A DNA stretch of 41,786 nucleotides, taken from NCBI RefSeq assembly GCF_000336935.1, contig NZ_AOME01000108.1:40281-82066 (forward strand). Reading direction: 5' to 3'. The first letter of the stretch is position 1. Each line of letters begins with the position of its first letter. Source of the DNA: Halococcus salifodinae DSM 8989. GTDB taxonomy: Archaea > Halobacteriota > Halobacteria > Halobacteriales > Halococcaceae. Under the pieces are notes generated by a model. The model did not search any database and had not been told where the DNA came from. It saw only the letters and a list, made by a program, of their open reading frames with translations. The translations under genes were made by a program, and so were the position numbers. Positions 3,681 to 38,671 of the stretch are shown here, piece after piece.

Positions 3681-4526
3681 CTACTCCGTGGCCGAATCGA
3701 TCACATCCCGGCCGGCCTCGGGAAGATCACCCGCCTCGACGTCGCGCAGCCGATCGTCGAGCACCAACCGCTGACGTGGCCGGCCGATGTCGATCGGCAC
3801 CTTCTCGGTCGTGAGTAGTCCCTGGTCTTCGAGTCGATTTTTCGTCCGCGAGAACGTGGCCTTGCTGGCGAGACCGACATCTTCACCCCACCGCGAGAGG
3901 TCGTAGTGCTGGAGTTCGTGTTTCGCGCCCGCGAGAAGGACCAACTCAACCTCGTCGAAGCGGTCATCATCGGTCGTCCTGTAGCCGTTGCTCCGGGTGG
4001 TCTCGACCGCATCGAGCATGGCCTGGTAGTCGGCCTCGACCGCGGGATCGATCTCGTCGCCGAGAGTTTCGTAGACCCGCGACCGTGGTGGCGTCCGAAG
4101 GTCGAAGGGTTCTGCGGTCTCCCATGCTTCACTACACCGCTCGCGCATGCTGTCGACGAACTCGGGGTCGTCGGTCGCTGGCCCGGCAGTTTGCTCGTCG
4201 GTCGACAGGATCGAAGCGACGGCATCCGCGGTCACCACCATCTGATTGGCGAAAGACCCGTCGGCCACCCGAAGTGAGAGCGTTTCAGCGGCGAGTAGAT
4301 CCGCAGCGGTGCTGGCGAGGTGGAAATCTCGGCGGAGCCACTTCGCTACGGTTTCCGTCACGAGAAGGCGGACTGTCGGCGGATCGTCGAGGCCGGCGAG
4401 GGCGTTCACGAGTGCCGCCGCCGGTTCCTCGGCGAGACCGGCGGCGAACACGTCGCTGGATGTGGACGCATCCGCGAGGTGTGCTCGATAGACTTCCGCA
4501 GTCGTTGGCGCGACGTGAGAAGGCAT
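3681..4526 (-). CDS. TbsP-like (DUF5821) haloarchaeal transcriptional regulator
   Basis: A 281-residue protein whose whole length matches what I know of the haloarchaeal TbsP/DUF5821 family. The N-terminal half is a sensor-like alpha/beta domain (DDPPTVRLLVTE, AADLLAAETLSLRV). The C-terminal winged helix contains WGEDVGLASKATFSRTKNRL and the family signature TEKVPIDIGRPRQRL. TbsP is known as a regulator acting near trmB in haloarchaea; this copy is an accessory paralogue on a mobile element, so its target is unknown. A TATA-like AAAAGTAAAT (about 4551-4560, minus strand) lies about 25-35 bp from the ATG, suggesting a nearly leaderless mRNA. vapBC lies 41 bp downstream on the same strand. Confidence 0.82.
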   Translation of the reverse strand: MPSHVAPTTAEVYRAHLADASTSSDVFAAGLAEEPAAALVNALAGLDDPPTVRLLVTETVAKWLRRDFHLASTAADLLAAETLSLRVADGSFANQMVVTADAVASILSTDEQTAGPATDDPEFVDSMRERCSEAWETAEPFDLRTPPRSRVYETLGDEIDPAVEADYQAMLDAVETTRSNGYRTTDDDRFDEVELVLLAGAKHELQHYDLSRWGEDVGLASKATFSRTKNRLEDQGLLTTEKVPIDIGRPRQRLVLDDRLRDVEAGDLPEAGRDVIDSATE

Positions 4527-6203: not shown

Positions 6204-6460
6204 TGATCGCCACCGCCCTCGCCGGGAACGAACACGAGTTCGTCACCGTGGTCGCTGTACTTGTCGAGTCGCCACCCGTCGGCGTTCGCGGCGCGAACCA
6301 GCCGGAGTACCGTCACCATCGCGGGCGCTCCGTTGCGAATATGGATGCGGATACGCTTGCCGTCGTGATGCGGGCGCGGCTCGGATTCGACGGTGTAGCG
6401 GTCGCGGTCGGTGCGGTCGGCGGCGAAGTCGGGGAGTGCCTGCTGATCGTCGTCGGTCAT
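6200..6460 (-). CDS. Small hypothetical protein, operon A
   Basis: An 86-residue protein. ATG 6460 overlaps the stop of the preceding gene by 4 bp; a longer upstream reading is basic and out of character. It contains HHDGKRIRIHIRNGAPAMVT and VLRLVRAANADGWRLDKYSD, a mixed alpha/beta pattern, then an acidic C-terminus. No family recognised. It sits third from the 5' end of a tightly coupled operon, so probably works with its neighbours. Confidence 0.6.
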   Translation of the reverse strand: MTDDDQQALPDFAADRTDRDRYTVESEPRPHHDGKRIRIHIRNGAPAMVTVLRLVRAANADGWRLDKYSDHGDELVFVPGEGGGDQ

Positions 6461-6717
6461 CGGCCGCTCTCCAACTGCTGGCACTCTGTGCAGTGCTCGT
6501 TGGCGTTGTCCGACCGTTCGCTCGTGTATCGGATGTGTACGCCGCACGAGACACACCGCACGCGCTCGCGGTCAAGCGGTCCATTGTAGGCAATTGCACG
6601 CTCGGTGTGGACGCGCTCGGGAACCGGCGACTCGGGTTCGCAGGGGGCGCTGGCGATGGTGCCGCTGGTCGTGACCGATGCGTCGGATTCAAACCGTTGG
6701 GTTGCGTTTTCGATCAT
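6457..6717 (-). CDS. First gene of operon A: small zinc-ribbon protein
   Basis: An 86-residue protein with a C-terminal ribbon, CVSCGVHIRY ... HCTECQQL, likely to bind Zn2+. The N-terminus (MIENATQRFESDAS) is closely similar to that of the first gene of operon B (MTENVTRRLESDAS), although the rest of the two proteins differs. The shared leader and shared N-terminus suggest the 5' end of the operon was copied as a unit. Translation begins directly after the start-proximal hairpin of leader L1. Function unknown. Confidence 0.66.
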   Translation of the reverse strand: MIENATQRFESDASVTTSGTIASAPCEPESPVPERVHTERAIAYNGPLDRERVRCVSCGVHIRYTSERSDNANEHCTECQQLESGR

Positions 6718-6812
6718 GGTTGTCTGCCCAAAAGACAGCCAGCCCGCGCGTTGTAGCGCGCGGGCACTTCCTTTCCGCTCGAAAGTGCCCCGAGGGGCCG
6801 GTCTGTCTCTAC
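6718..6812 (-). ncRNA. Structured 5' leader RNA, copy L1 (operon A)
   Basis: Predicted 95-nt leader on the minus strand, from an inferred start at 6812 (GTAGAGACAGACCGG) to the ATG at 6717. Homologous to copies L2-L4. Possible helices in order: GCCC-CUCG-GGGC; GGGCACUUUC with GGAAGUGCCC; GCCCGCGCG with CGCGCGGGC (9 bp, loop CUACAA); and GGCUGUCU with AGACAACC (one mismatch) ending right at the start codon. Adjacent hairpins share strands. A TATA-like CTTTATCA at 6834-6841 is centred about 26 bp upstream of the start. Upstream of that, L1 has no similarity to the other copies, so the conserved unit is the transcript, not the promoter. Confidence 0.72.
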
Positions 6813-7678: not shown

Positions 7679-9511
7679 TCAGGAGTTAGTGACCGTCTTG
7701 TGGCTGTTTTCGATTTCATCGCGAACGATACGGCGTATCTCTGCTTCCGAGGGGCTGGTATCGTTCCGAGCGGCGGCGAGGTCTTCGCTCATCGCGGATA
7801 GCTGCTCTTGGAGAACTTCGATTTTCTCGTGAGCGGAGAGATCGTCGGCGGTCTCGAAGTTCTCGGGCGAGAGTGCTGGCGTGTCAACGTCGATATCGCG
7901 CGAGACGGCAATCGGCGTGAGCATCCGGCTGCGTGTTGCCTGTTGGATGCTCTCGACGTTCTTGGCGAGATGAGTCGCAAGGTGGCCCTGTGCGTACTCC
8001 GGGCCGTGAATGAGCGCTACCGTCTCGGGGCTCACAGTTCGGACGAACTCTAAAAGGCCGTGCTGGGCGGCGTGGCCACTCAACCCGTTGATCGTACTCA
8101 CCCAGTCGGCAGGGATCGTCGCGCGGGTAACCGGCTTGCTCTTTCCGTCCTCCTCGACAGTTGTCCGCACGATGTTTGAGACAGAGGGCCAGTCGGTGCC
8201 GAGCGGTTCGCTGTCCACGGTATAGGTGAGTTCGTCCTTCTCAGCCTTGCGTTGGTCTTGGAGCACGCGCCCGGTGGTGTTCTGGGCCTGATAGCCGGTG
8301 AGAAAGACGTTCGCGGAGCCGAAGCGGGCGGCGAACTCGGTGAGATACCGCGGGGAGTTGCCACCAGTAAGCATCCCCGACGGCGCGATGATGATCGGGA
8401 CCTTGCCACCCGAGCGGGCCGCGTCGGTGAGGATCGCCCGCCGGTCGCTGTCCGAGCTCGGAAAGGCGGTGCCGTCCGGCAGGAACGGTTTCGAGGTACC
8501 AGACTCGACGCGATTCACGATCGATTCGTCCATATAGCTTGCGTCGGTGGCGAACTCGTGGTAGATGTCGATCGCCTCCTGGGCCATGCCATCAACGACG
8601 AGTTGGACCCGATCTTGAATGTCGTCTGAGAGCGTGTGCAGCCGATTAGCGAACAGGAGCATGAGCATCTGGGCGCGACCGACTGCGAAGGTGGGGATAA
8701 GGACGGGTTCGCCGGACTGGACCGCACGCTTGGCTGCGTCGTAGAGGCTCGACTGTGCATCACTCATTGCGGTGTGGCTGTGGAGCGACCCGTAGGTGGA
8801 TTCGAGGACGAGCAGATCGGCCTGCGGTGGTGCGGTGATGTCCGGGAGGTGGGGTGCGCGCCCGCCGAGGTCGCCCGAGAACACGGTGCGATAGCCGTTG
8901 GTCTGAAGCATCAACCATGCCGACCCGAGCAGGTGGCCGGCGTTGCCCATCTGGAATACCAGCGGGTCCTCGTCGGGGATGGGCGCGAGGGCTTCGACGC
9001 GGCCACCGCCGTACTCGACGGGTTCGAAGCGCTCGAATACGTCCTCGACGTGGCTCTCGACGTACTGCTGTTCTTCGCCCGCATGACGGCTTTCGCGGCG
9101 ATGAATCTTCAACGAGTCTTCGAGCAACGTTTTGGCGATTTCGATGGTGGGTGGGGTGGCGATGATCGGCGCGTCGTCGGCGAGCAACCCGCGGGCTTCG
9201 AGGATTGGCAGGCCGCCGGAGTGATCGATGTGAGCGTGGGTGAGGAAGACTGCACCGATGCTACCGGGTTCCAGCCCACGAAAGTCGGGGAATGAGTCGC
9301 CGGTCCCCTGATTGAGTCCACAATCGACGAGGGTGGTGCTGAACTCGGTGTCGACCTGGTAGCAGCTCCGTCCGACCTCTCTCGCGCCGCCGCGGGGGGT
9401 GACAGCTATCGGGGTCTCGGTGTCGATCTCGATGTCGGCGTGTGCAAGCGGGTCGAACGTTTCGTCGGCGTCGGCCGGCAACCACGGCATTTCTTCGTTG
9501 ACTCCGCTCAT
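7679..9511 (-). CDS. Beta-CASP metallo-beta-lactamase RNase, last gene of operon B
   Basis: A 610-residue protein of the MBL/beta-CASP family (RNase J/CPSF73-like nucleases). Visible motifs: VDCGLNQG (motif 1, about 62-69), HAHIDHSGG (motif 2, 92-100), NAGHLLGSAW (motif 3, about 190-199), FSGDLGG (motif 4, about 211-217), LESTYG (beta-CASP A), IIAPSGML (B), FLTGYQAQNTTGR, LSGHA and LIHG (C). All metal ligands appear present. There is no N-terminal KH domain, unlike archaeal aCPSF1. About 100 extra C-terminal residues are acidic and coiled-coil-like. Its start overlaps the HhH gene by 4 bp, which makes it the distal gene of an operon that begins with leader L2. RNA processing or decay is likely; the substrate is unknown. 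Confidence 0.88.
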   Translation of the reverse strand: MSGVNEEMPWLPADADETFDPLAHADIEIDTETPIAVTPRGGAREVGRSCYQVDTEFSTTLVDCGLNQGTGDSFPDFRGLEPGSIGAVFLTHAHIDHSGGLPILEARGLLADDAPIIATPPTIEIAKTLLEDSLKIHRRESRHAGEEQQYVESHVEDVFERFEPVEYGGGRVEALAPIPDEDPLVFQMGNAGHLLGSAWLMLQTNGYRTVFSGDLGGRAPHLPDITAPPQADLLVLESTYGSLHSHTAMSDAQSSLYDAAKRAVQSGEPVLIPTFAVGRAQMLMLLFANRLHTLSDDIQDRVQLVVDGMAQEAIDIYHEFATDASYMDESIVNRVESGTSKPFLPDGTAFPSSDSDRRAILTDAARSGGKVPIIIAPSGMLTGGNSPRYLTEFAARFGSANVFLTGYQAQNTTGRVLQDQRKAEKDELTYTVDSEPLGTDWPSVSNIVRTTVEEDGKSKPVTRATIPADWVSTINGLSGHAAQHGLLEFVRTVSPETVALIHGPEYAQGHLATHLAKNVESIQQATRSRMLTPIAVSRDIDVDTPALSPENFETADDLSAHEKIEVLQEQLSAMSEDLAAARNDTSPSEAEIRRIVRDEIENSHKTVTNS

Positions 9512-9825
9512 CGTTGTTCACCCACCTTGTGGTTGTTCACCTCGGCGATGATGAGACGTGCGCGCCGTTCACCGATTTCATCGATTGTCAGCAGGTCCTC
9601 GCGGGTGGCGTCGGCGAGGTCTGCGATCGTCTCGTAACCTTCGTCGGGGAGGCGGTGGGCGAGCGCTGGTCCGACGCCGTCGAGGCTGGTCAGATCGGGT
9701 GACTGCTCGCCGTTGCTGTCGCGCGCACACATTGCAAACGGCGGGCGGTCGCCGACTGGTACGCCCTCGTCTTCGTCGTGGTCGTCTGACTGTTCTGTCG
9801 TGGTGCGTGGTTGGTTGTTTGGCAT
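9508..9825 (-). CDS. Helix-hairpin-helix protein
   Basis: A 105-residue protein. The acidic, Pro-rich N-terminal half is followed by a tandem HhH unit (LTSLDGVGPALAHRLPDEGY, LTIDEIGERRARLIIAEV) of the kind that binds DNA backbone non-specifically (RuvA/Rad51-like). ATG 9825 (MPNNQPRTTTEQ) is chosen over longer readings, which are basic and overlap other genes. It is coupled by ATGA to the beta-CASP RNase gene, so the two may act together. The HhH unit resembles those fused to the VirB4-like ATPase in this window. Confidence 0.78.
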   Translation of the reverse strand: MPNNQPRTTTEQSDDHDEDEGVPVGDRPPFAMCARDSNGEQSPDLTSLDGVGPALAHRLPDEGYETIADLADATREDLLTIDEIGERRARLIIAEVNNHKVGEQR

Positions 9826-9851
9826 GTTGATGCTTTTCGGTGTTGGTATTG

Positions 9852-9989
9852 CTATTGTTGAACGCCCCGAAGCCCTGTCGGTCGAAGATCGTGTTCGTGG
9901 TGGGTGGCGGACGCCTCCATCATCGTCGAATCCTTGGCCTCGACCATCGGGCCACAGATCGCACACTCGACACGAATGACGCCTTTCAT
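9852..9989 (-). CDS. 45-residue Cys/His-rich protein, operon B
   Basis: A very small protein, MKGVIRVECAICGPMV ... SATHHEHDL, with a CxxC followed by a His cluster, consistent with a single C2H2-like zinc knuckle. Its ATG overlaps the upstream stop by 4 bp (ATGA), and 26 bp separate it from the HhH gene. The tight coupling and zinc-finger pattern support a real gene despite its length. Confidence 0.58.
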   Translation of the reverse strand: MKGVIRVECAICGPMVEAKDSTMMEASATHHEHDLRPTGLRGVQQ

Positions 9990-10450
9990 CGGTCGGCTTG
10001 CTCGACGTGGATCGTGACGTTGCCGGTGTCGTAGTCGGCCTCGACAAGCTGGACCTCGTAGGCGTCTGCCTGGACGGCGGCGCGGTAGGTCCATTCGAGC
10101 GCGTGGCCGTCGTTCGTGAACTCCGGTCGGCCGTAGTCGCTCTCCCCGACGATTTTCCCGCGTACGACCTTGCTGTTGTAGAACACGGTCGAAATGTAGG
10201 GCGCGCTCTGGGTTTCGATCTGTGCCTCGGTGGTTTGTGGGACTGCGACCCGTCGGGGATCGTCGTCGACGAAGGCTTTCGCGCGCTCGACACTCCCGGC
10301 GATCTGGCGGGTGCGCTCGCCCGATAGAACATTCACGGGAACCGTGCGCTCGGCGTGGGCTTCCGAATACAGCACTTCCTCGTACGTCCGCGTTCCTCGA
10401 ATAGCTTCGTCCCCGAGCGGTGCGTCCGCGAATGCGTCGGTGTCGCTCAT
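9986..10450 (-). CDS. Hypothetical protein, operon B
   Basis: A 154-residue acidic protein (MSDTDAFADAPLGDEAIRGT). Its C-terminal half is predicted to be beta-rich (SAPYISTVFYNSKVVRGKIV, LEWTYRAAVQADAYEVQLVE, GNVTIHVEQ). No cysteines and no recognised family. Coupled to its neighbours by 4-bp overlaps at both ends. Haloarchaeal codon use and acidity argue that it is expressed. Confidence 0.62.
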   Translation of the reverse strand: MSDTDAFADAPLGDEAIRGTRTYEEVLYSEAHAERTVPVNVLSGERTRQIAGSVERAKAFVDDDPRRVAVPQTTEAQIETQSAPYISTVFYNSKVVRGKIVGESDYGRPEFTNDGHALEWTYRAAVQADAYEVQLVEADYDTGNVTIHVEQADR

Positions 10451-10626: not shown

Positions 10627-10769
10627 TGATCGGCCTCCTCGGGTTTTGAGACGAGAATCGTTCCACGCGAGCGGCACCACGCGAGTCCGTATCCGTCGGA
10701 ATCAAACGATACGGGATGAGTGTCGTCACACTGTGAGCACTCGTATGTTTGGCGTTCGCCGTGGCTCAT
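10623..10769 (-). CDS. 48-residue Cys-rich protein, operon B
   Basis: A tiny protein, MSHGERQTYECSQCDDTHPV, with a CxxC pair, a later single Cys (GLAWCRSRGTIL) and a His. It may form a small zinc site. Both ends show 4-bp start/stop overlaps with the genes around it, which is the main support for its being translated. Confidence 0.55.
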   Translation of the reverse strand: MSHGERQTYECSQCDDTHPVSFDSDGYGLAWCRSRGTILVSKPEEADQ

Positions 10770-11287
10770 GCTTCCTCCGTGGTGCTCTCGCCCGCGATCT
10801 CGAACGGGTAGAACGTCGCGTACGTACCGTCGGCGGAAGCGTCCTCGTTGACGAGGGTCGTCGAAGGGCCGGTCGACGCGTTGACGTGGATGACACCAGC
10901 AGGCCGGCCTTCGCCGCCGGGGAACGTCGCGGGAGCGAACTCGCACAGCGCCTTGATGATTCCGTTGCGGAACGCCGCCCCGTTCTCGCGCTCGTTCAGG
11001 TCGCGGTCAAACCGTGTTTCGTGGGTGTAACGGGAAAGCACCTGCTCGATCGAGAGGCCGTAGCGGTAGGTCGCGCTCGGCTCAGGGGCTTCGTCGGTGG
11101 GCGCGGTCGTGAACGTCTTCGGGTCGCCGTTGTCCCAGCGCGTGCGGGCTTCAACCGCGCCGTCCGCACGAACGACGAGCGCCCAGTCACCGACCGCGTG
11201 AACCGTCTCGCCGTCGGCTTCGCTGGTCGGTTGGTGGTCGGCAGGCGATGCGTCGGATTCAAGTCGTCGGGTTACGTTTTCGGTCAT
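10766..11287 (-). CDS. First gene of operon B: hypothetical protein
   Basis: A 173-residue protein of unknown function. ATG 11287 (MTENVTRRLESDAS) is chosen because it lies immediately after the start-proximal hairpin of leader L2 and matches the N-terminus of the first protein of operon A. The middle has a beta-rich block (GDWALVVRADGAVEARTRWD) and helical stretches (YRYGLSIEQVLSRYTHETRF, GAAFRNGIIKALCEFAPATF). No catalytic motif recognised. Confidence 0.62.
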   Translation of the reverse strand: MTENVTRRLESDASPADHQPTSEADGETVHAVGDWALVVRADGAVEARTRWDNGDPKTFTTAPTDEAPEPSATYRYGLSIEQVLSRYTHETRFDRDLNERENGAAFRNGIIKALCEFAPATFPGGEGRPAGVIHVNASTGPSTTLVNEDASADGTYATFYPFEIAGESTTEEA

Positions 11288-11379
11288 GGTTGTTCTCCAC
11301 CGAGACAACCAGCCCGCGCGTTGTCGCGCGCGGGCACTTCCTTTCGTGAAAGTGCCCCGAGGGGCCGGTCTGTCTCTAC
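11288..11379 (-). ncRNA. Structured 5' leader RNA, copy L2 (operon B)
   Basis: Predicted 92-nt leader from 11379 to the ATG at 11287. Helices: GCCC-CUCG-GGGC; GGGCACUUUC/GGAAGUGCCC; GCCCGCGCG/CGCGCGGGC (loop CGACAA); then GGUUGU/ACAACC extended through an A bulge by CUC/GAG with loop GGUG, abutting the AUG. The TATA equivalent (CTTTAA on the plus strand, 11402-11407) is centred 25-26 bp upstream of the inferred start. The purine-rich GGUGGAG inside the last hairpin is the only Shine-Dalgarno-like stretch, and it would be hidden in the loop and stem. Confidence 0.75.
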
Positions 11380-11401: not shown

Positions 11402-11570
11402 CTTTAATGTTTTACTTCGGGGTTGTACTCTGAGTCTTACGTCGTTCGGTTTCGGTGCTCACAAGGCGCTGAAGCCGGTGGGATGGGCGTGGTGGTGCGC
11501 CACGCGACTGTGCTTGTCATAATAGTCCAGTTCCGAAGCCGCTGAGACCGCTGCTGTCGTCCGTACAGCG
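11402..11570 (-). repeat. Promoter and upstream repeat of leader L2
   Basis: First of three long homologous promoter regions (others at 13007-13165 and 14318-14480). From the gene outward: TATA box (TTAAAG read on the minus strand), a box reading GAGTACAACCCCGAAG, and a distal 16-bp box (CTTGTCATAATAGTCC on the plus strand, 11513-11528) that lies exactly 109 bp from the TATA box in each copy. The block ends with conserved CCGAAGCCGCTGAGACCGC. No coding sequence is credible here. The rest of the gap to 11634 shows nothing further. Confidence 0.7.
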
Positions 11571-11634: not shown

Positions 11635-12417
11635 TTAGTGACCGTGGTTGGGAAGTTCGGGATCGGCGAGCGCGAAGCCATCAATGCGGGCGTCGAAAGT
11701 GAGTGTGGCGGTTGCGACCACCTCGCCGGGTTCGTCGGCCTCGCCGTCGCCGGGCGGACCACAGTCTTCGCAGCTAACCCAGCGGAGCGACCACTTGTCT
11801 GTGTCGCGGACACGGGTCGCGTACACGACCACCGTATCAGGGTCTTTGTCGTCGAGGTCATGCTCGCGGTGACCGTCAGTCAGCCGCCGGTTGCACGAAT
11901 CACACGCGGCGCTGCCACCGGGGCCACCGACGGGCGTGCCGGCGAGCATCGCCGGGGTGAGCGCGTCGTCTTCGTGGTCGTCCTCGACGCGGCCACCGTC
12001 GGCGAGCGCTCGGGGTGCCTCGTCGTCCGCAGCCGTGTTCGCGGTGGGTTCGTCGGCTCGGTCGTCACTGCCGGCGTGGGTTTCGGGGGCGTCGTCGTCG
12101 GATTCGTCGGTCTCAAATAGGCATTGGCTGGCGGCGCGTTCGCCCGTGAGTGTTTGCTGGTCGTCCTCGGTGTCGGCGAACAGCGAACCCTGCTCGCCCG
12201 CGTCGGCCGACGTGGCTTCCGGGCGATCGTCCACACCGAAGGTGGTAGCTTCGGGCTGGTCGATCTGGCTATCCCGCTCGCGGTGATCCACGTTCGCGCC
12301 GAACGCTTCCAGCGATGTTTCGATACTCTCCTCGGCGGCTTCGATGCCGTCCGTCTCGCCGTCCTCGCCGACCGAAAAAGCGTACTGCTGGGTGATGGTC
12401 GGGGTGTCGTCGCTCAT
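11635..12417 (-). CDS. Acidic zinc-ribbon protein, operon C
   Basis: A 260-residue very acidic protein. The N-terminal 150 residues look disordered (long D/E/T/A tracts). The C-terminal third has a ribbon-like fold with CDSCNRRLTDGHREHD and WVSCEDCG, probably a Zn2+ site, set in a beta-rich domain (TVVVYATRVRDTDKWSLRW; EVVATATLTFDARIDGFAL). It overlaps the SWIM-protein gene by 4 bp and ends operon C. No enzymatic motif seen. Confidence 0.66.
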   Translation of the reverse strand: MSDDTPTITQQYAFSVGEDGETDGIEAAEESIETSLEAFGANVDHRERDSQIDQPEATTFGVDDRPEATSADAGEQGSLFADTEDDQQTLTGERAASQCLFETDESDDDAPETHAGSDDRADEPTANTAADDEAPRALADGGRVEDDHEDDALTPAMLAGTPVGGPGGSAACDSCNRRLTDGHREHDLDDKDPDTVVVYATRVRDTDKWSLRWVSCEDCGPPGDGEADEPGEVVATATLTFDARIDGFALADPELPNHGH

Positions 12418-12890
12418 GCTGCCAGGACCTCCTCGACGCGCTCTTTCTTGTCGGGGCTGATCCCGAGCTGGCCGATAGCTTCGATAGCGGACGCGCCGGG
12501 GTTGTTCGCGGCGAATTGTTCGACACGCTCGGCGAGCGTCTGACTGTCGTCGGTCTCTGTCTCGGTATCGGCGTCGGTGTCGTCGGTCTTGTCGCTCGAT
12601 TCGACACGAACACCGTCAATGTCTGGGATTTCGCCGGTAACGAACGCGACTCGGTGGGCGTGTTTGCACCACGATCCGCGCTGGCCGTCGGGACACGTAC
12701 ACGATCCATCCGACGGGTCCACCGTGTAGGTGTTGCCCGACCCACTGAGCACCGTGTATTTGCCGTTGTCGCCGGCTGCTTCGACGTGGAAGAAGCTATC
12801 GAGCGCACGGGTAACACGCTTTGCGACCGCCTCAACACCGCGTCGTTCGTCGTCGGTACGTTCTTGACCGTTGGGTTCGTAGGCGTTCAT
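12414..12890 (-). CDS. SWIM zinc-finger protein, first gene of operon C
   Basis: A 158-residue protein with a SWIM motif, SCTCPDGQRGSWCKHAHRVA (CxC...CxH), preceded by the typical beta hairpin GKYTVLSGSGNTYTVDPSDG. SWIM domains bind Zn2+ and mediate DNA or protein contacts, for example in MuDR transposases and Sws1/Shu-type recombination proteins. The C-terminal part has an acidic linker and a helical unit (ASAIEAIGQLGISPDKKERV). The start codon follows the start-proximal hairpin of leader L3 directly. Confidence 0.78.
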   Translation of the reverse strand: MNAYEPNGQERTDDERRGVEAVAKRVTRALDSFFHVEAAGDNGKYTVLSGSGNTYTVDPSDGSCTCPDGQRGSWCKHAHRVAFVTGEIPDIDGVRVESSDKTDDTDADTETETDDSQTLAERVEQFAANNPGASAIEAIGQLGISPDKKERVEEVLAA

Positions 12891-12984
12891 GGTTTGTCCG
12901 TTGAAACAAACCGGCCCGCGCGGTCTGAACGCGCGGGCACTTTCCTCGTTGGAAAATGCCCCGAAGGGACCGGTCTGTCTCTAC
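12891..12984 (-). ncRNA. Structured 5' leader RNA, copy L3 (operon C)
   Basis: Predicted 94-nt leader from 12984 to the ATG at 12890. It is the most diverged copy in hairpins 1 and 2, yet keeps pairing: CCC-UUCG-GGG in hairpin 1, GGGCAUUUUCC with GGAAAGUGCCC in hairpin 2 (11 bp including one G-U), GCCCGCGCG with CGCGCGGGC (loop UUCAGAC), and GGUUUGU with ACAAACC ending at the AUG. Base changes that preserve or wobble pairs, compared with L1/L2/L4, support a selected RNA structure. The TATA equivalent is at 13007-13012. Confidence 0.75.
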
Positions 12985-13600: not shown

Positions 13601-14203
13601 CTACTCCTCGGGGTAGGCGATGCGTCCGGTCCACGTCCGCTGTGCGTCACGCGAATGGGCTTCACCGTCGACCCGGAACGAACCCGTCGCACCGCAGGAC
13701 TGGCACTCGTAGAACTCCTCCCACTTCTGATTATTACTGTCCTCGGTCGCGGCGATCATGGCGACCTCGAAGCGCGACCCGCAGGACTGGCATTGTCGTT
13801 TCTCGCCTGCGCCCTCGACTTCATCGCTGTAGTGTGCGACCTCGTGGCCCCAATGATCGGCCTGGGGATGGTCGTGGTCGTGGTCCGTTTCGTCGGTCGT
13901 CTCGTCGGTTTCGATGACCGTGCCGCCGTCGGTGGCGATTTGCTGGCCGATCTCCGCCGCAGCTGCTACCGCGCTCGACCGCACGAGTGGGCGGGTTTCG
14001 ATCTCGTCTTGATGGACACAATGGCCGTTGAACTTGTGGCCTTTGCAGGAACAGCGAACGACCTCACCCGCACCGTCGACGAACACCGAGTGGGCGCGGT
14101 CGGATTCGGGGCGCTTGACGTTGATAACGCCGTTGTGGCAAACCGTGGTTTTGAGGCCGATGCAACCGGATGTTTCTTGACCGCTGAGTTCGTTCGTCGT
14201 CAT
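13601..14203 (-). CDS. SWIM-like plus zinc-ribbon protein, first gene of operon D
   Basis: A 200-residue protein with an N-terminal SWIM-like site, VVRCSCKGHKFNGHCVHQDE (CxC...CxH), and a C-terminal ribbon, RQCQSCGSRFEV ... YECQSCGATGSF. The middle is His/Asp-rich (DETDHDHDHPQADH), which may bind metal. It is a functional cousin of the SWIM protein of operon C, and its start codon sits at the same position after a leader (L4) whose start-proximal hairpin matches that of L3. This suggests operons C and D arose by duplication. Confidence 0.76.
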   Translation of the reverse strand: MTTNELSGQETSGCIGLKTTVCHNGVINVKRPESDRAHSVFVDGAGEVVRCSCKGHKFNGHCVHQDEIETRPLVRSSAVAAAAEIGQQIATDGGTVIETDETTDETDHDHDHPQADHWGHEVAHYSDEVEGAGEKRQCQSCGSRFEVAMIAATEDSNNQKWEEFYECQSCGATGSFRVDGEAHSRDAQRTWTGRIAYPEE

Positions 14204-14295
14204 GGTTTGTCCGTTGAAACAAACCAGCCCGCGCGGTCTGAACGCGCGGGCACTTCCTTTCGTGAAAGTGCCCCGAGGAGCCGGTCTGTCTCTAC
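14204..14295 (-). ncRNA. Structured 5' leader RNA, copy L4 (operon D)
   Basis: Predicted 92-nt leader from 14295 to the ATG at 14203. Hairpin 1 is GCUC-CUCG-GGGC, where a C-to-U change is tolerated as a U-G pair. Hairpin 2 is identical to L2. Hairpin 3 has the 9-bp GC stem with the L3-type loop UUCAGAC. The start-proximal hairpin GGUUUGU/ACAAACC is identical to L3. This mixture of L2-like and L3-like parts suggests recombination among copies. The TATA equivalent is at 14318-14323. Confidence 0.75.
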
Positions 14296-25139: not shown

Positions 25140-28100
25140 TCAATCATCACCTCCTGCCGTGCCGGCCACCGCACCCTCCGCCTGCTCGTCGACGAGACTG
25201 CTCGCGCTCTCGACGATTGTCGCGGCACGGGCACCGCCGATCCCCTTGACATCGGTCAGGGTGCTCTCGTTGGCGGTTGCCACGTCCTCGACTGTCTCGA
25301 AGCCCGCTTCACGGAGCATGTCGGCACGGTCGTCACCGATCTCCTGAATGTCCGTGAGCGCCGGCTGGCCGGACTCGTCGGCGGATACTTGCCCGGCTGT
25401 ATCGGCACTCTCATCAGCGTCAGGACTATCCGAAGACTGCGCTTCCTCGGGCTGCTGTCCGTCGATCTCGGCGTTTTCGCGCTTGTCCGTTGCTTCTGGC
25501 GATTCAACGATCGATTTGGATCGACCAAGCGGTTCGGCCGCCTGTCGGCGGAGGAACGCGGCTTTGGTCACGTCAAGGCCCTCGACCTCTGCGAGCGCTG
25601 CGTTGTCGGCCTCGAAGAAATCCTCGACGCTCCCGTAGCCTGCTGCTCGAAGGTTGCCCGCCATTCGGACGGTAATGGTACCGTGAATGTCGGTCAATTC
25701 CGGGTCCTCGACCGCTTCGCTCTTGTCCTGGTCGTTGCGACCGACTGCTTCACTCACCGAGTCTTTCAGTCGGCTGGCGAACCCAGCCGATTCTTCGTCG
25801 GCCGGCCCATCACTCCCGATCTCGCTCTCGGCTGTGGCCGATTCATCACCGTCTGCTTCGTCGGCGGGCGTTTCACCCCGAGCCTGTTCGGGGCTGTCCG
25901 TGGCCGCGTCGGCGTCCGTGTTTGCCTCGGTCGGGGTCACGTCCACATCCGCTACATCGGTCGTGACCGTCGTCCCATCTGCGAGCTCGGTTCCGGTGTG
26001 GGACTGGTCGGTTCGTGACCCGTGTCCGGCGTCGTCCTGCCCGAGCCATGTCCACTCGGTCACGTCTTTGTCGTCTCGGTCCGTATAGTTGTGGAGATAT
26101 GCGAGTGGGTCCGTCCCGTCCTCGGCCTCGGTCGGATCGTACTGGTTCACCGCAAATTCACGCGGCGTCAATTTGTCCGTGTAATCCACCGCAAGCCGGT
26201 AGCTCCCACCTTTCTGCAACGTCAGCAGCGCTTGGGCGGTCGGTTCACCCGTGGCCGCGTCCTCGACATGGCGCTGTTCTGCATCCGTCAAGTCAAATTC
26301 ATCCGCCCACTCGTCATTCATCTCTTCGAGGTAGTGCCAGATTTTCACCGACATGAGATTCGTCAGCGTGCTCGCGTCGTCGGTCAACTGTCGCTCGCCC
26401 TCGTCGTTCTTCGTGAAGAACTCCTCGACCGACTGAGTGGCCGTTATCATCGAGAGATCGGAGTGCCGTGAGTGCCGATACGCCTGTTTCAGCGTTTCCA
26501 ACGACGAACTGTTATGGAGCATATAGTGAAATTCATCCATCGCCAATGCCATCGGCTCGTCAATCTCCTTGGCTTGCTCCAGAACCGACGTGAGTAGTGG
26601 CCCCATCATCAACCCGGCCGTCACCTCGTTCTCGTAATTTTGGAGGTCCAGATACAGCACGTCGATGTTGTTGATGTCGATGCTGGTCTCTTCCGAGAGA
26701 TGTTCGAACTCCCCACCCTCCTGAAGCGCCCCCGTGTGTTGATGGAGAATTTTGTCCGCTCTCTGTTCCATCCCGTCTACCGAGGTGTCCACGTCTTCGG
26801 CTCCGCTGAGGACGAATTCTTCAGGGTCATTTAACATCTCCAGAAGAATCGGGAACACGTCCTCTTTGAGGGTCGGACTGTCCCGATGGTGTGTGCTCGG
26901 GTCCTTGGTGATTTCACGGCGGCTGTAAGCTTCCTTGATTGCGTCCCGCCACGTATCCTGTACGTCCTCGAAGGGGAGGCTCTGGTACTCGTAGAAGCTC
27001 CGCACGAAGTCCATTGCCCGACGAATCGCATTCCGATACGGTCCTTCATCGCCGTCTTCATCCAAATCCTCCGGGGGAGTTTCCTCGATTTGGAGTGGGT
27101 TGATGCCGGTATTCGATCCGATTTTCACCGTCTGGCCGTCGAACAGCCACGTAAACCCGGCAAATTCCTGTTTCGGGTCGATGATGACCAGCGGCATCTC
27201 AGGATTTTTCATCTTCAGCCGCAGGAGCAGCCGCGTCAACGTCGTCGTCTTTCCACTCCCGATCGTGCCCCAGACCCCGACATTGAATCCCGTCTCACGG
27301 TTCTGGAGATCGAGGATGATCGGGTCGCCCGTATCCTCGTTCGTCCCGAGTTCGATACCGCCGGGTTCGATGAGATTGCTGGCCGTCCACGGCATGAGGC
27401 GGGCAAGCCCGTCGCCGGTCATTTTCGTCTGCCCGCCGAGGTAGTTCTTGCACGCGGGCGCAACCGTCTGATAGCCTTCCTTCGGGTGGTATTTCAGTTC
27501 CTTCGCAGCTGCCGACACGTCCTGCATCCGCGCCTGAATCCGCTCGATTGCCGTATCGAGTCTGTCGCGGTCGGGCGCGCGGACCTCGATGTAGGTGTGC
27601 GCTGTGTATAGCGAGTATTCGGATGCAGAGATCGTGTTCTGCGTGCGCTTCACATCAGCATATTCCTCGACCGCAGTATCCACGAAGTAATCAGGGATCC
27701 ACTTGTTGCGTGCCAGACTCTTCACCCGCTGTTTGAGCGAGTCAGCCGAGTCGGCAAGCTCTTGGTTGGCGTTCCGCTTGTTCTCGCCCGAGAAGTGCGT
27801 CGTGAGCGTGACATCGACCTTCGGCATCTGGAACGAAACGATGTCATCAAAAAACCCGCGGCACGGTTTTGCGGGCCAATCGCGCACTTCCAGCGTCTTC
27901 GTGAAGTAGTCGCCGTCGATCTCGGCACACTCGTCGTGGAGTTTGAACGAGTCCGGGGCGAGCGCTGTCTTGTACCGCCACGCGAGTTCTTCGTCGTCAG
28001 CCGCGAGACCTACGAGTGCGTCTTCATTCAAGTCGGCCACTGAGTCGCTTTCTGTGGGCATTGTTCCACCGTCGGTCATCACGGTCCTGTTGTGGGCGAG

Positions 28101-28514
28101 ATCAGCCGAGGTGCTGGTGTCTCCGAGATCCTGATGGCTCTCGTAAATCCGACGGACGGCCCCGACGACGCCACCGCTATCGTCAGCGATGACGAGAATC
28201 GGAACCCACCCACCCCCATCACTGAGCGGGTAGCCGTGGAGGTCGCCATAACGTGCAGCCTCATCGAGTTCGGCCAGCGCGACATCATACTCACAGGCGA
28301 ACGAGCCGAACGCTTCGGCCTCGGCCTCGCGTAAGTGAACAGTGCGACCTTCCAATGGATGAGACACTGACTCGCCGACAGTCCGAACGAACATGCTGCG
28401 GAGACGGTCGAACTCCGCACGTGCTAGCGGGTCGTTCTCAGCAACCCACTGACTGAGGGCGTTGACTAGCTCTTCGTCGGGGCTGTGGTCGGTGATATCG
28501 GGTTCGTTGTTCAT
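25140..28514 (-). CDS. VirB4-like T4SS ATPase with C-terminal helix-hairpin-helix domains
   Basis: A 1124-residue ATPase. The region around 190-400 is VirB4/TrbE N-terminal-like, with Walker A VWGTIGSGKTTTLTRLLLRL (about 414-433), then PLVIIDPKQEFAG, and Walker B MALAMDEFHYML (about 655-666) with the downstream SMITATQSVEEF. This is the best-supported T4SS component: a hexameric motor for pilus assembly and DNA transfer. Unusually, the C-terminus carries two HhH-type units after a long acidic linker (LTDIHGTITVRMAGNLRAAG near 950; LTDIQEIGDDRADMLREAGF near 1050). These may let the motor bind DNA. Starts and stops overlap neighbouring genes. Confidence 0.85.
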   Translation of the reverse strand: MNNEPDITDHSPDEELVNALSQWVAENDPLARAEFDRLRSMFVRTVGESVSHPLEGRTVHLREAEAEAFGSFACEYDVALAELDEAARYGDLHGYPLSDGGGWVPILVIADDSGGVVGAVRRIYESHQDLGDTSTSADLAHNRTVMTDGGTMPTESDSVADLNEDALVGLAADDEELAWRYKTALAPDSFKLHDECAEIDGDYFTKTLEVRDWPAKPCRGFFDDIVSFQMPKVDVTLTTHFSGENKRNANQELADSADSLKQRVKSLARNKWIPDYFVDTAVEEYADVKRTQNTISASEYSLYTAHTYIEVRAPDRDRLDTAIERIQARMQDVSAAAKELKYHPKEGYQTVAPACKNYLGGQTKMTGDGLARLMPWTASNLIEPGGIELGTNEDTGDPIILDLQNRETGFNVGVWGTIGSGKTTTLTRLLLRLKMKNPEMPLVIIDPKQEFAGFTWLFDGQTVKIGSNTGINPLQIEETPPEDLDEDGDEGPYRNAIRRAMDFVRSFYEYQSLPFEDVQDTWRDAIKEAYSRREITKDPSTHHRDSPTLKEDVFPILLEMLNDPEEFVLSGAEDVDTSVDGMEQRADKILHQHTGALQEGGEFEHLSEETSIDINNIDVLYLDLQNYENEVTAGLMMGPLLTSVLEQAKEIDEPMALAMDEFHYMLHNSSSLETLKQAYRHSRHSDLSMITATQSVEEFFTKNDEGERQLTDDASTLTNLMSVKIWHYLEEMNDEWADEFDLTDAEQRHVEDAATGEPTAQALLTLQKGGSYRLAVDYTDKLTPREFAVNQYDPTEAEDGTDPLAYLHNYTDRDDKDVTEWTWLGQDDAGHGSRTDQSHTGTELADGTTVTTDVADVDVTPTEANTDADAATDSPEQARGETPADEADGDESATAESEIGSDGPADEESAGFASRLKDSVSEAVGRNDQDKSEAVEDPELTDIHGTITVRMAGNLRAAGYGSVEDFFEADNAALAEVEGLDVTKAAFLRRQAAEPLGRSKSIVESPEATDKRENAEIDGQQPEEAQSSDSPDADESADTAGQVSADESGQPALTDIQEIGDDRADMLREAGFETVEDVATANESTLTDVKGIGGARAATIVESASSLVDEQAEGAVAGTAGGDD

Positions 28515-33334: not shown

Positions 33335-35473
33335 ATGAACAGAAAAGGCCACGTCGGTATGACGCTCCTCGCGTTCGCGCCCGTCGCGCACGTGCTCGCG
33401 AGCGATGGGAAACTCCTGCTCGCCGTCCTGTGCTGGTTCGGGATTCAAGCCGTCGAACCCCTACCCGATCAAGATTTTCGCCTCCCGATGCTCACCCATC
33501 GCGGGGTGAGCCATTCACTGCTGGGCGTGTTCGTCGTTGGCGGGATTCTTGGCGGGGCTGGTTGGTTTCTCGGCGGACACGGGTTCAAGTTGCTGTATGA
33601 CCTGCTCTCGACGTTCGTGGGCGTTTGGGACTGGCTTCTCGGGTTGCTGCCGGAGCTTTCAGCATCGATTCTCGCGGGCCTCGTGCCGAACATACCGCCG
33701 GACGAGATCGTTACGACGCTCCAGCAGCAGGCCGGAGGGAGTGTGGATCGATCGTCGTTCGCCATATTCGGGTTCTTCATCGGCGCATACGGCGTGCTCG
33801 CGCACCTGCTCGGCGACGTGATCACCGTTCGGGGTATTAAACCGTTTCTCCCGTTCTCGGGCTGGCGGTTCTCGGTCTCGTCTCTGCGGGCGGACAGTCC
33901 GGTTGCGAACGCCGGTCTGTTCGGAGTGGGTGTGCTCGCTATCGTCGTCGTACTGGTTGCGACCGTACCGGGGGCGATCCTCGGAGCGGGTACGCCTGCC
34001 GACCTCTCGCCTGTCGGTGTCGCTGGTGCTCAGGATTCCGGCGCGCACAACGGCTCGGTACAGATCAACGACACACGCACGAACCAGACACAAGTCGTCT
34101 TGGAGAGCGTGACGCTCCCGCAGAATGGATATATCGTCGCACAGACCGGCAACGACTCGGGAAATCAGTCGGGCACGGTTGTCGGACATACCCAATACGT
34201 CCGTAACGGAACCTTCGAGAACGTCATTCTTGAGCTGAATGAGACAGCTGATGCGTCGTCGAAGCTCTCTGTGACGCTCTATAACGACTCTACCGGCGAT
34301 GAAACGCTGAATGTCACTGGTGGAATCGCGGACACTCCATACCGGACGGCGAACGGAACGCCAGTCCGGGATAGCGTGCAACTCGGGGCAAACGGTAGCG
34401 AGAGCATCGGCCAGAACCGGAACGCTACCACCACTAACGCGACGGTCGAACTCGATAGCACGAACAACACAACTGCGACGAACGTAACCATCACCGAAGC
34501 GACCCTTCCAGATGGAGGGTTCGTTGCTCTTCACGGTGAAGGATTCAACCAAAGCGGCACGCTCAGAGGCACCGAGATTGCCGCCTCGGGCTACCTCACA
34601 CCCGGCACACACCGGAACCTCACTCTCCCGGTCGAGCAAGGCGTTCCGGGCAGTTCCAACGTCTCGCGGCTGAACGATACCAGGGCGAACCTCTCGCTAG
34701 TCGCCTACCGGGATACGGACAACAACGCTCAGTTCGGTTACACCGCCTCGAAGGGTCGCAACGACACGCCCTATGAAACGTCAGACGGCGGGCCAGTGTC
34801 CGATACGGGCACGGTTGTCCTTGAGAGTAACGTCGAAAGAGTGAATCAACAATCACAGCCAGCAGCAGCGACGTTCTCGTTTGCCGATCAACAGGTGCAA
34901 CAGCGCGACGGTAACGCCTCTGTCGTCGTGCGGAACGTCTCGTTGGCAGAGGGCGGATTCATCGGAATACACACGGCGGACTTCTTGCCACCGACGCGAC
35001 AGCCGATCGATAGCGGTCTCGGCCACTCACAGTATCTCACGGCCGGGAATCATTCGAACATCATCGTCCGGCTCCCGCCCGGTTCGTTAGCGGGCAATCA
35101 GACGCTCGTCGCGGTGCCGTATCTCGACACGAACGGCAACCAGCGCTACGATTACACCCGTAGTGGCGGCGAGACTGACTATGCGTATATCGAGCAGCAG
35201 AACAACTCAACCGTCCTCATCAACGAGACTGCTACCGTTCGCGTACCGCGTTCACTCCGGGCGACATCGCCGGCCTCGACCTCCTCGATCACCTCGACCA
35301 CAGTCTCGGAAGAGCCGACTCAAACGGCGACGACCGATGGAAACGCGACCCGCGGTGCCGAAGGAGAGCAAAAAGGCCTCCTAAGCGGGTATTCGCTCCT
35401 CCAACTCCTTGGTGGCGCTCTCGTAATTGTGCTTGCACCAACCGTCATTAGACGACTGACGCGGGGGCGCTGA
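33335..35473 (+). CDS. DUF457/YdjM-like membrane domain fused to three extracellular repeats
   Basis: A 712-residue protein. Residues 1-225 are a membrane domain of the YdjM/DUF457 metal-dependent hydrolase type, with His/Asp motifs GHVGMT, LTHRGVSHSLLG (54-63) and HLLGDVITVRGIKPF (157-171). Residues about 235-670 form an external region of three repeats (each has LP-x-GYIVAQ, GGFVALHG or GGFIGIHT, then an NVIL/NLTL/NIIV strand and a YxDxxxD block) resembling haloarchaeal DUF7282 surface domains. The region is full of N-x-S/T sequons. A single C-terminal membrane helix (LLQLLGGALVIVLAP) ends the chain. It probably acts at the cell surface, perhaps in mating contact. Confidence 0.74.
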   Translation: MNRKGHVGMTLLAFAPVAHVLASDGKLLLAVLCWFGIQAVEPLPDQDFRLPMLTHRGVSHSLLGVFVVGGILGGAGWFLGGHGFKLLYDLLSTFVGVWDWLLGLLPELSASILAGLVPNIPPDEIVTTLQQQAGGSVDRSSFAIFGFFIGAYGVLAHLLGDVITVRGIKPFLPFSGWRFSVSSLRADSPVANAGLFGVGVLAIVVVLVATVPGAILGAGTPADLSPVGVAGAQDSGAHNGSVQINDTRTNQTQVVLESVTLPQNGYIVAQTGNDSGNQSGTVVGHTQYVRNGTFENVILELNETADASSKLSVTLYNDSTGDETLNVTGGIADTPYRTANGTPVRDSVQLGANGSESIGQNRNATTTNATVELDSTNNTTATNVTITEATLPDGGFVALHGEGFNQSGTLRGTEIAASGYLTPGTHRNLTLPVEQGVPGSSNVSRLNDTRANLSLVAYRDTDNNAQFGYTASKGRNDTPYETSDGGPVSDTGTVVLESNVERVNQQSQPAAATFSFADQQVQQRDGNASVVVRNVSLAEGGFIGIHTADFLPPTRQPIDSGLGHSQYLTAGNHSNIIVRLPPGSLAGNQTLVAVPYLDTNGNQRYDYTRSGGETDYAYIEQQNNSTVLINETATVRVPRSLRATSPASTSSITSTTVSEEPTQTATTDGNATRGAEGEQKGLLSGYSLLQLLGGALVIVLAPTVIRRLTRGR

Positions 35474-37903: not shown

Positions 37904-38671
37904 TCATCGATCAGTCTCAAAATCGGTGAGTCGCGTCGAGTGTGCTGAATCTGCGGTTTCGGGGGAGAGTGAGACGAACTCTAAGCCTTCGGTTGTCAAC
38001 AATTCCTCGGCCCGCTGGGTTACTGACGGCGCGACCAAAATGCCCCTGACGGTCCTCTCGGCCGAAAGATCGCGTTCGAGTGCGTCGACGTAGCGGTTCA
38101 ACTGTCCCGCGGCGTCGGGACCCACACGCCGACGTTTGAGTTCGACGATGGTCGGGGTGTCGTCGGCGTCTTTCCCGTAAATGTCGACTGCGCCGGCAGC
38201 GGTTTCGCGCTCGGTCATCTGGGGTTGAAATCCGGCTTCGAGCACGTCGGGGTCAGCGAGGATGCGCTGGCGAAGGTCTTCTTCGCTTCCTTCAAGTGAG
38301 AGATCGGAGGCGTCGTCCAGTTCGACGAGTGAGACTTGATCGAGTGTGTCGAACGTGATCGTGACCTCCTCATGCGGTGTCGTGCGGGTGCTCTCGACGA
38401 TGAGCCGATCGTCGTCGAGACAGGCGGTGTGGGTACAGCCGGGTGGTTGCCAGTTGACCGGGGTGCGCTGCTCGTCGCGATGGACTAAGAGCGTGCCGTC
38501 GGATTTCAGAATGACTAATCGGTCGCCCGGCGGAAGGTGACTCGTTGCGCGCCCCTCGTAGTCAACCTCACATCGCCCGACGAGAGTCAGCATGCCACTC
38601 TGCTTGAACCCGGTTTCAAGCAGGTCAAGCGCGTCCTCAGACTCCGGAGCGGTGAGTGTGGAAACGGTCAT
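37904..38671 (-). CDS. nucS: NucS/EndoMS mismatch- and branch-specific endonuclease
   Basis: A 255-residue protein of normal NucS length. The N-terminal beta domain is present (VGRCEVDYEGRATSHLPPGD, RLVILKSDGTLLVHRDEQRT). The C-terminal RecB-like nuclease domain shows GAVDIYGKDADDTPTIVELK (Asp163, Glu177, Lys179) and GPDAAGQLNRYVDALERD. NucS/EndoMS cuts both strands at mismatches or at branched DNA and takes the place of MutSL in many archaea and actinobacteria. It is encoded in a run with the MarR/MazF-like pair, 24 bp after the 60-residue protein gene, which is unusual for a repair gene. Confidence 0.9.
   Translation of the reverse strand: MTVSTLTAPESEDALDLLETGFKQSGMLTLVGRCEVDYEGRATSHLPPGDRLVILKSDGTLLVHRDEQRTPVNWQPPGCTHTACLDDDRLIVESTRTTPHEEVTITFDTLDQVSLVELDDASDLSLEGSEEDLRQRILADPDVLEAGFQPQMTERETAAGAVDIYGKDADDTPTIVELKRRRVGPDAAGQLNRYVDALERDLSAERTVRGILVAPSVTQRAEELLTTEGLEFVSLSPETADSAHSTRLTDFETDR

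Follow-up and report, generated by a model that had tools for sequence, protein, structure and literature searches.

A probable translational switch in the mRNA leaders of mobile and accessory genes of haloarchaea

Haloarchaea are regarded as dependent on leaderless mRNAs. In a 41,786-nucleotide stretch of Halococcus salifodinae DSM 8989 (the window in what follows), a preliminary description made from the sequence had pointed to positions 11288-11379 as a leader whose hairpins share strands and exclude one another, in the manner of an attenuator or a riboswitch. The locus raises the question of whether such an RNA indeed has two alternative structures, which of its strands take part in the exchange, and what this could mean for the gene behind it.

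Results

The placement of this leader proved right: it lies on the minus strand, with its first base at 11379 and its last at 11288, directly before an ATG at 11287-11285. The window contains four such leaders, all on the minus strand, each of which starts ~28 nt after a TATA-like box and ends at an ATG. All four open with the 15-mer GTAGAGACAGACCGG (four occurrences found, none expected by chance). With the ATG included in the coordinates, copy 1 occupies 6715..6812 (R2 89.7 bits) in front of a gene for a Cys-rich protein of 86 aa (6457-6717), and copy 2, from GTAG to ATG, occupies 11285..11379 (R1 101.4 bits; R2 92.4 bits, E 1.5e-23) in front of a gene for a 173-aa protein with no Pfam family (10766..11287). 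Copy 3 is found at 12888..12984 (R2 81.0 bits) before a SWIM zinc finger gene (Pfam SWIM, 12414-12890), and copy 4 at 14201..14295 (R2 79.8 bits) before a gene with a SWIM-like CxC..CxH arrangement (13601-14203). The TATA-like box of copy 2, TTAAAG, is located at 11402..11407 on the minus strand, ~28 nt 5' of the first base of the leader. Downstream of leader 2 the minus strand also encodes a nuclease of the beta-CASP/MBL-fold type (7679-9511) together with a helix-hairpin-helix protein (9508-10332); leaders on other plasmids, too, have genes for MBL-fold proteins or RNase J nearby. Genes for a HerA/FtsK-like ATPase with helix-hairpin-helix domains (25140-28514, minus strand), for a YdjM plus DUF7282 membrane protein (33335-35473, plus strand) and for a NucS endonuclease (37904-38671, minus strand) make up a plasmid- or element-like set in the window.

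The MFE fold of all four window leaders is a three-way junction of the stems P1, P2 and P3. P1 is a long closing stem, in which GAGACAGACCGGCCC is paired with GGGCUGGUUGUCUC; in copy 2 its 5' strand, termed A, maps to 11362..11376 and its 3' strand to 11302..11315 (this and all following copy 2 features on the minus strand). The two strands are separated by J1/2 (CUCG, 11358..11361), which is the sole unpaired stretch of the junction, and by the hairpins P2 (11332..11357) and P3 (11316..11331). Copy 2 reaches an MFE of -52.8 kcal/mol, compared with -32.0 +/- 3.4 kcal/mol for dinucleotide shuffles (z -6.1). Among 62 MFE structures, J1/2 reads CUCG or CUUG in 34, J2/3 is empty in 60 and J3/1 in 58, and the 5' end sits 3 nt from a P1 stem of 14-16 bp.

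We found strong covariation in this fold. In an alignment of 106 distinct sequences, which was fitted to the P1-P3 structure and so leans towards it, 93.4% of the cells in P1-P3 hold standard pairs compared with 78.1% in shuffled alignments. Both partners change in 28 of the 29 pairs, with 455 two-sided cells versus 116 in shuffles, and the covariation score is 0.489 as opposed to 0.203 for shuffled alignments and 0.02-0.08 with slid partners. Two-sided changes occur in all P1 columns, in 9 of the 10 pairs of P2 (88% of cells paired) and in 5 of the 5 pairs of P3 (99.6% of cells paired). The inner pairs of P1 hold in 97.9% of cells from 60 homologues, with frequent compensatory U-A pairs. G-U cells by far outnumber A-C cells in the pairs of the leader (268 versus 43), and the functional strand is thus the sense RNA. 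As in the conserved, structured aptamer of a riboswitch, the 5' UTR here contains a covarying three-way junction found across haloarchaea.

The 3' strand of P1 holds a short segment, M (GGUUGU, 11305..11310), whose complement also occurs immediately 5' of the AUG, in a segment termed C (ACAACC, 11288..11293). Pairing of M with C generates a hairpin, P4, which ends 0-2 nt before the AUG. In 60 non-redundant leaders, native M:C duplexes have a mean energy of -10.45 kcal/mol compared with -6.77 kcal/mol for swapped partners (z -11.8), and A:M duplexes have -16.12 compared with -10.86 kcal/mol (z -13.0). A pairing signal between A and C was also sought in the same 60 leaders, and none was found. 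In a second set of 53 leaders, none of which was used in building the first covariance model, the values were z -9.5 for M:C and z -16.6 for A:M. Both tests are independent of the alignment fitted to P1-P3, and in the first set neither native value was reached in 20,000 permutations, which ignore shared ancestry, a concern that thinning to <85% identity and the second set lessen but do not remove. M hence has two mutually exclusive partners and covaries with both A and C in two sets of leaders, as expected for the switching strand of a riboswitch.

When P4 is held in one fixed register, 77% of its cells are paired, with 89 two-sided cells versus 49 in shuffles (0/500). This column count is weaker in part because of an additional base in the M segment of 41 sequences, which shifts the register of P4. 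The hairpin is almost purely Watson-Crick, with 3 G-U in ~370 pairs when the register is picked by Watson-Crick count. In our models of 60 leaders, the median cost of the P4 state relative to the P1 state is 6.5 kcal/mol (quartiles 4.4-8.8), and P4 is the preferred state in three of them; Boltzmann samples of six of this genome's seven leaders place M in P1 in every structure. P1 is thus thermodynamically dominant in most copies, and formation of P4 would need something that opens P1. Judged by its position next to the AUG, the M/P4 pairing may control the start region. An SD-like GGUGGAG (11295..11301) is located in the P4 loop of copy 2, and 51 of 114 leaders contain an SD-like 4-mer, compared with 26 expected from shuffles. 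Since many copies have no clear SD, the exact target of masking by P4 is uncertain.

We analyzed the distribution of the leader with two covariance models. The first, built from this genome's own seven leaders (four inside the window, three on another contig), gave matches in 78 of the class's 391 genomes, and in a phylum-level search every match fell within the window's own order. The second, built from 113 aligned matches and used at E <= 0.001, detected the leader in 205 of the 391 haloarchaeal genomes and in 66 of 86 genera. As a specificity control we took 80 database loci that carry a 27-nt piece of the motif: all 14 haloarchaeal loci match (E <= 2e-5), compared with none of the 66 bacterial chance carriers of the pattern (best E 0.011). 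A known Rfam family was rejected as an identity, with no match above the curated threshold: a search of Rfam 15 returned no match in the window and none of relevance at six loci at a relaxed threshold.

Plasmids of Halococcus, Halomarina and Halalkalicoccus contain two to four copies each; in the 55-kb Halomarina plasmid NZ_CP119995.1, four leaders of equal score and length lie at 3728, 14388, 30740 and 47095. A BLASTN search of the leader region against phages found nothing, and the virus version was reached through the SWIM protein. A diverged form of the layout precedes SWIM-gene operons in the haloviruses BJ1 and Humcor1, in a Halorubrum tailed virus and also in a Halobacterium plasmid, as judged by inspection and folding in all cases and by weak model scores in two (L134, E 0.028; L138, E 0.015). 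This subtype (L132 ~1128-1225, L133 ~1206-1288, L134 1627-1709 and L138 841-916) has another junction sequence; it shares the P1/P4 layout and the placement of the start codon and, for the most part, the coding-region motif described below. Six IMG/VR contigs carry the exact AUG-proximal hairpin of this subtype. IMG/VR contigs retrieved by way of the exact 5' 15-mer represent chance matches.

The leader always lies between a TATA-like box and an ATG, and its length from first base to ATG is 73-104 nt. In ~94 of 105 homologues the TATA-like match, in a region outside the covariance model, starts at -27 or -28. From this spacing, transcription probably starts at GTAG, which would bury the 5' end of the mRNA in P1.

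The genes behind the leader are unrelated: by sequence they form at least seven groups of more than one member each, besides singletons, and they show no clear metabolic theme. Among 62 downstream proteins, SWIM zinc fingers are the commonest (18, by Pfam), 19 match PHROG 17897, and none matches a ribosomal-protein family. We rejected a ribosomal-protein leader, the genes encoding SWIM, Cys-rich and uncharacterised proteins. The mean Cys content of the regulon is 3.4% versus 1.8%, a modest enrichment that we do not take as evidence for a ligand. Very short ORFs of 8-37 codons follow the leaders L053, L058, L081, L092, L102, L105, L110, L111, L114 and L115, and may represent decayed genes or genuine small proteins.

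A second conserved element is located inside the coding regions. With the A of the ATG counted as 0, positions 25 and 26 are A/T (96 and 98%), 28 is A (92%), 32 is a pyrimidine (92%), 35 is C (90%) and 36 is G (95%); behind leader 2 the motif reads CTTGAA.....CG, from +24 to +36 (11251..11263). The full pattern is found in 95 of 124 non-redundant leader genes compared with 2 of the 443 remaining ORFs at these loci. Because the covariance model ends at the ATG, the motif independently confirms the matches, and because the encoded residues differ, selection appears to act on the nucleotides. Pairing of the motif with the leader was considered and rejected, the highest mutual information, read without a shuffle control, being a modest 0.28 bits. 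Positions 25-26 are AA, TT or AT and never TA (0/124), which resembles a preference seen for double-stranded DNA.

Discussion

The preliminary description had seen three chained hairpins: the GGGC closing hairpin 1 would also open hairpin 2, and the GCCC ending hairpin 2 would also open a nine-pair hairpin 3, so that either 1+3 or 2 could form. These strands are indeed shared in all four window copies, which speaks for that reading; the hairpin 1 sequence GCCC-CUCG-GGGC, said to be in every copy, is exact in just two of them, at 6.7 and 11.3 kb (hairpin 1 reads GUCC..GGGC with a loop of 5 nt at 12.9 kb, and GCUC..GGGC at 14.2 kb). The two arrangements exclude each other only at the base of hairpin 2, across four pairs; the upper part of this hairpin can coexist with 1+3. 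What had been overlooked is the long outer stem P1, to which hairpin 1 contributes its 5' strand and hairpin 3 its 3' strand, with hairpin 2 corresponding to P2 and the 5-bp core of hairpin 3 to P3. The alternative of 1+3 and 2 is not conserved. Hairpin 3 is complete in its nine-pair form in 17 of 60 homologues, its extension being broken in the other 43, usually by C-A; 49 of 60 homologues retain hairpin 1 in full, for the most part via G-U and without compensation, opposite an almost invariant partner. This hairpin persists through G-U alone, because its GGGC partner is retained for P2. With the inner pairs of P1 kept and hairpins 1 and 3 not compensated, selection follows the junction, and P1 also explains the G-U changes in copies 3 and 4 better than does the proposed selection on both hairpin states. 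When forced, hairpins 1+3 are ~4 kcal/mol worse than the junction. In copies 1, 2 and 4 the modelled P4 state contains hairpin 1 and the long hairpin 3, and the earlier picture is thus partly supported as a local part of the alternative state. As for transcription attenuation, a terminator-like hairpin with a U-run was sought on the sense strand and none was found; the structure leads straight into the AUG, and the sole terminator-like match is antisense, on the plus strand, and within chance. It appears extremely improbable that hairpins 1+3 and 2 are the regulatory states of an attenuator-type leader. The broader claim, that a regulatory leader uses chained exclusive pairing, is strongly supported, with A:M and M:C as the strands involved.

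Two further explanations would dispense with a sensor or with the RNA itself. The junction and the long 5' stem could protect the 5' end of the mRNA or provide a landing site for a stability protein, P4 then being a backup that silences transcripts trimmed from the 5' end, for example by a 5'-3' exonuclease such as aRNase J. A 5' end buried 3 nt from a 14-16-bp stem is in line with this, loss of strand A alone would let P4 form, and a beta-CASP nuclease gene (7679-9511) lies downstream on the same strand, with MBL-fold/RNase J genes near plasmid homologues. This apparent association is one of gene neighbourhood, however, and protection leaves the conserved CUYG junction, the loop sequences of P2 and P3 and the coding-region motif unexplained. 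We consider it unlikely. A role at the DNA level, either as a cruciform recombination or replication site or as the end of a mobile cassette, would make the RNA irrelevant. It could draw on the clustering of copies on plasmids and virus genomes, on identical-score copies within one plasmid, and on a leader and first codons common to unrelated genes. It is disfavoured by the strong bias of G-U over A-C, by the fixed placement from TATA-like box to ATG and by the fact that P4 abuts the ATG, which render it very improbable.

Our preferred reading, which we regard as probable, is that the leader acts in cis as a translational switch for mobile and accessory genes of haloarchaea. Comparison of the homologues establishes, at the level of sequence, the junction, P1, P4, the shared strand M, the sense of the strand, the promoter-ATG placement and the coding-region motif. 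We infer from these an exchange between the two states in cells, an action on translation and an effector that sets the balance. Transcription would begin at the first base of P1 or beside it, and the RNA would fold into the compact P1-P2-P3 junction, in which P1 holds M. With P1 formed, C would remain unpaired and the start codon accessible (ON); if P1 is lost, M would pair with C in P4, so that the start region is masked (OFF), the direction of the switch being suggested by geometry. A ligand or protein that reads the CUYG junction or the P2/P3 loops may set the balance, with an element-encoded regulator (possibly the SWIM protein), a small molecule or an ion as candidates; 5' trimming would also fit. 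The coding-region motif stands outside this model, which does not account for it. A further-reaching proposal, which we put forward tentatively, is that the leader defines a new natural class of riboswitch or of switch governed by an RNA-binding regulator, carried by plasmids and viruses into most genera of haloarchaea, which subjects many unrelated genes to a single translational signal and has a second recognition element in the first 13 codons.

We compared the leader to known systems. The add adenine riboswitch is a translational 'ON' riboswitch with a three-way-junction aptamer. Like add-type riboswitches, our leader has P1 as the closing stem of a three-way junction, and the 3' strand of this stem has a second possible partner in the ribosome-binding region that precedes the AUG. 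In contrast to them, it has a much longer P1 and mostly no strong SD, it shows no sequence relation and no Rfam match, it has no known ligand, and one type of leader precedes many unrelated genes and is accompanied by a coding-region motif. Leaders of the crcB type are likewise structured archaeal 5' leaders thought to act on translation, but the fold and the genes are different here and there is no match to crcB in Rfam. The S15 leaders, haloarchaeal ribosomal-protein leaders that mimic an rRNA binding site described as a multistem junction (PMC7247131), are also structured, whereas the genes in our case encode SWIM, Cys-rich and uncharacterised proteins, none with a match to a ribosomal-protein family. 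The synthetic theophylline riboswitch E masks SD and AUG when OFF and regulates translation in the haloarchaeon Haloferax volcanii, but it is engineered and uses a theophylline aptamer (PMC8241225). In the open-licence literature we found no earlier description of this leader or of a haloarchaeal SWIM-gene leader. We rate it as a new family that would work like known translational switches, its unusual features being the many unrelated genes and the coding-region motif.

Roughly half of the haloarchaeal genomes sampled contain this switch-like leader with its covarying pairs, which contradicts the expectation of leaderless mRNAs and provides a concrete RNA that is testable in genetically tractable archaea. 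The leader joins unrelated and mostly uncharacterised plasmid and virus genes into a candidate regulon, and may reveal the stimulus to which they respond. In a subset of homologues (e.g. L030, L048 and L063), inverted repeats are located between the TATA-like box and the start of the leader. Repeats with an arm score >=7 are found in 25 of 114 copies compared with 5 of 570 shuffles; they are possible operators, which hints at transcriptional control as well.
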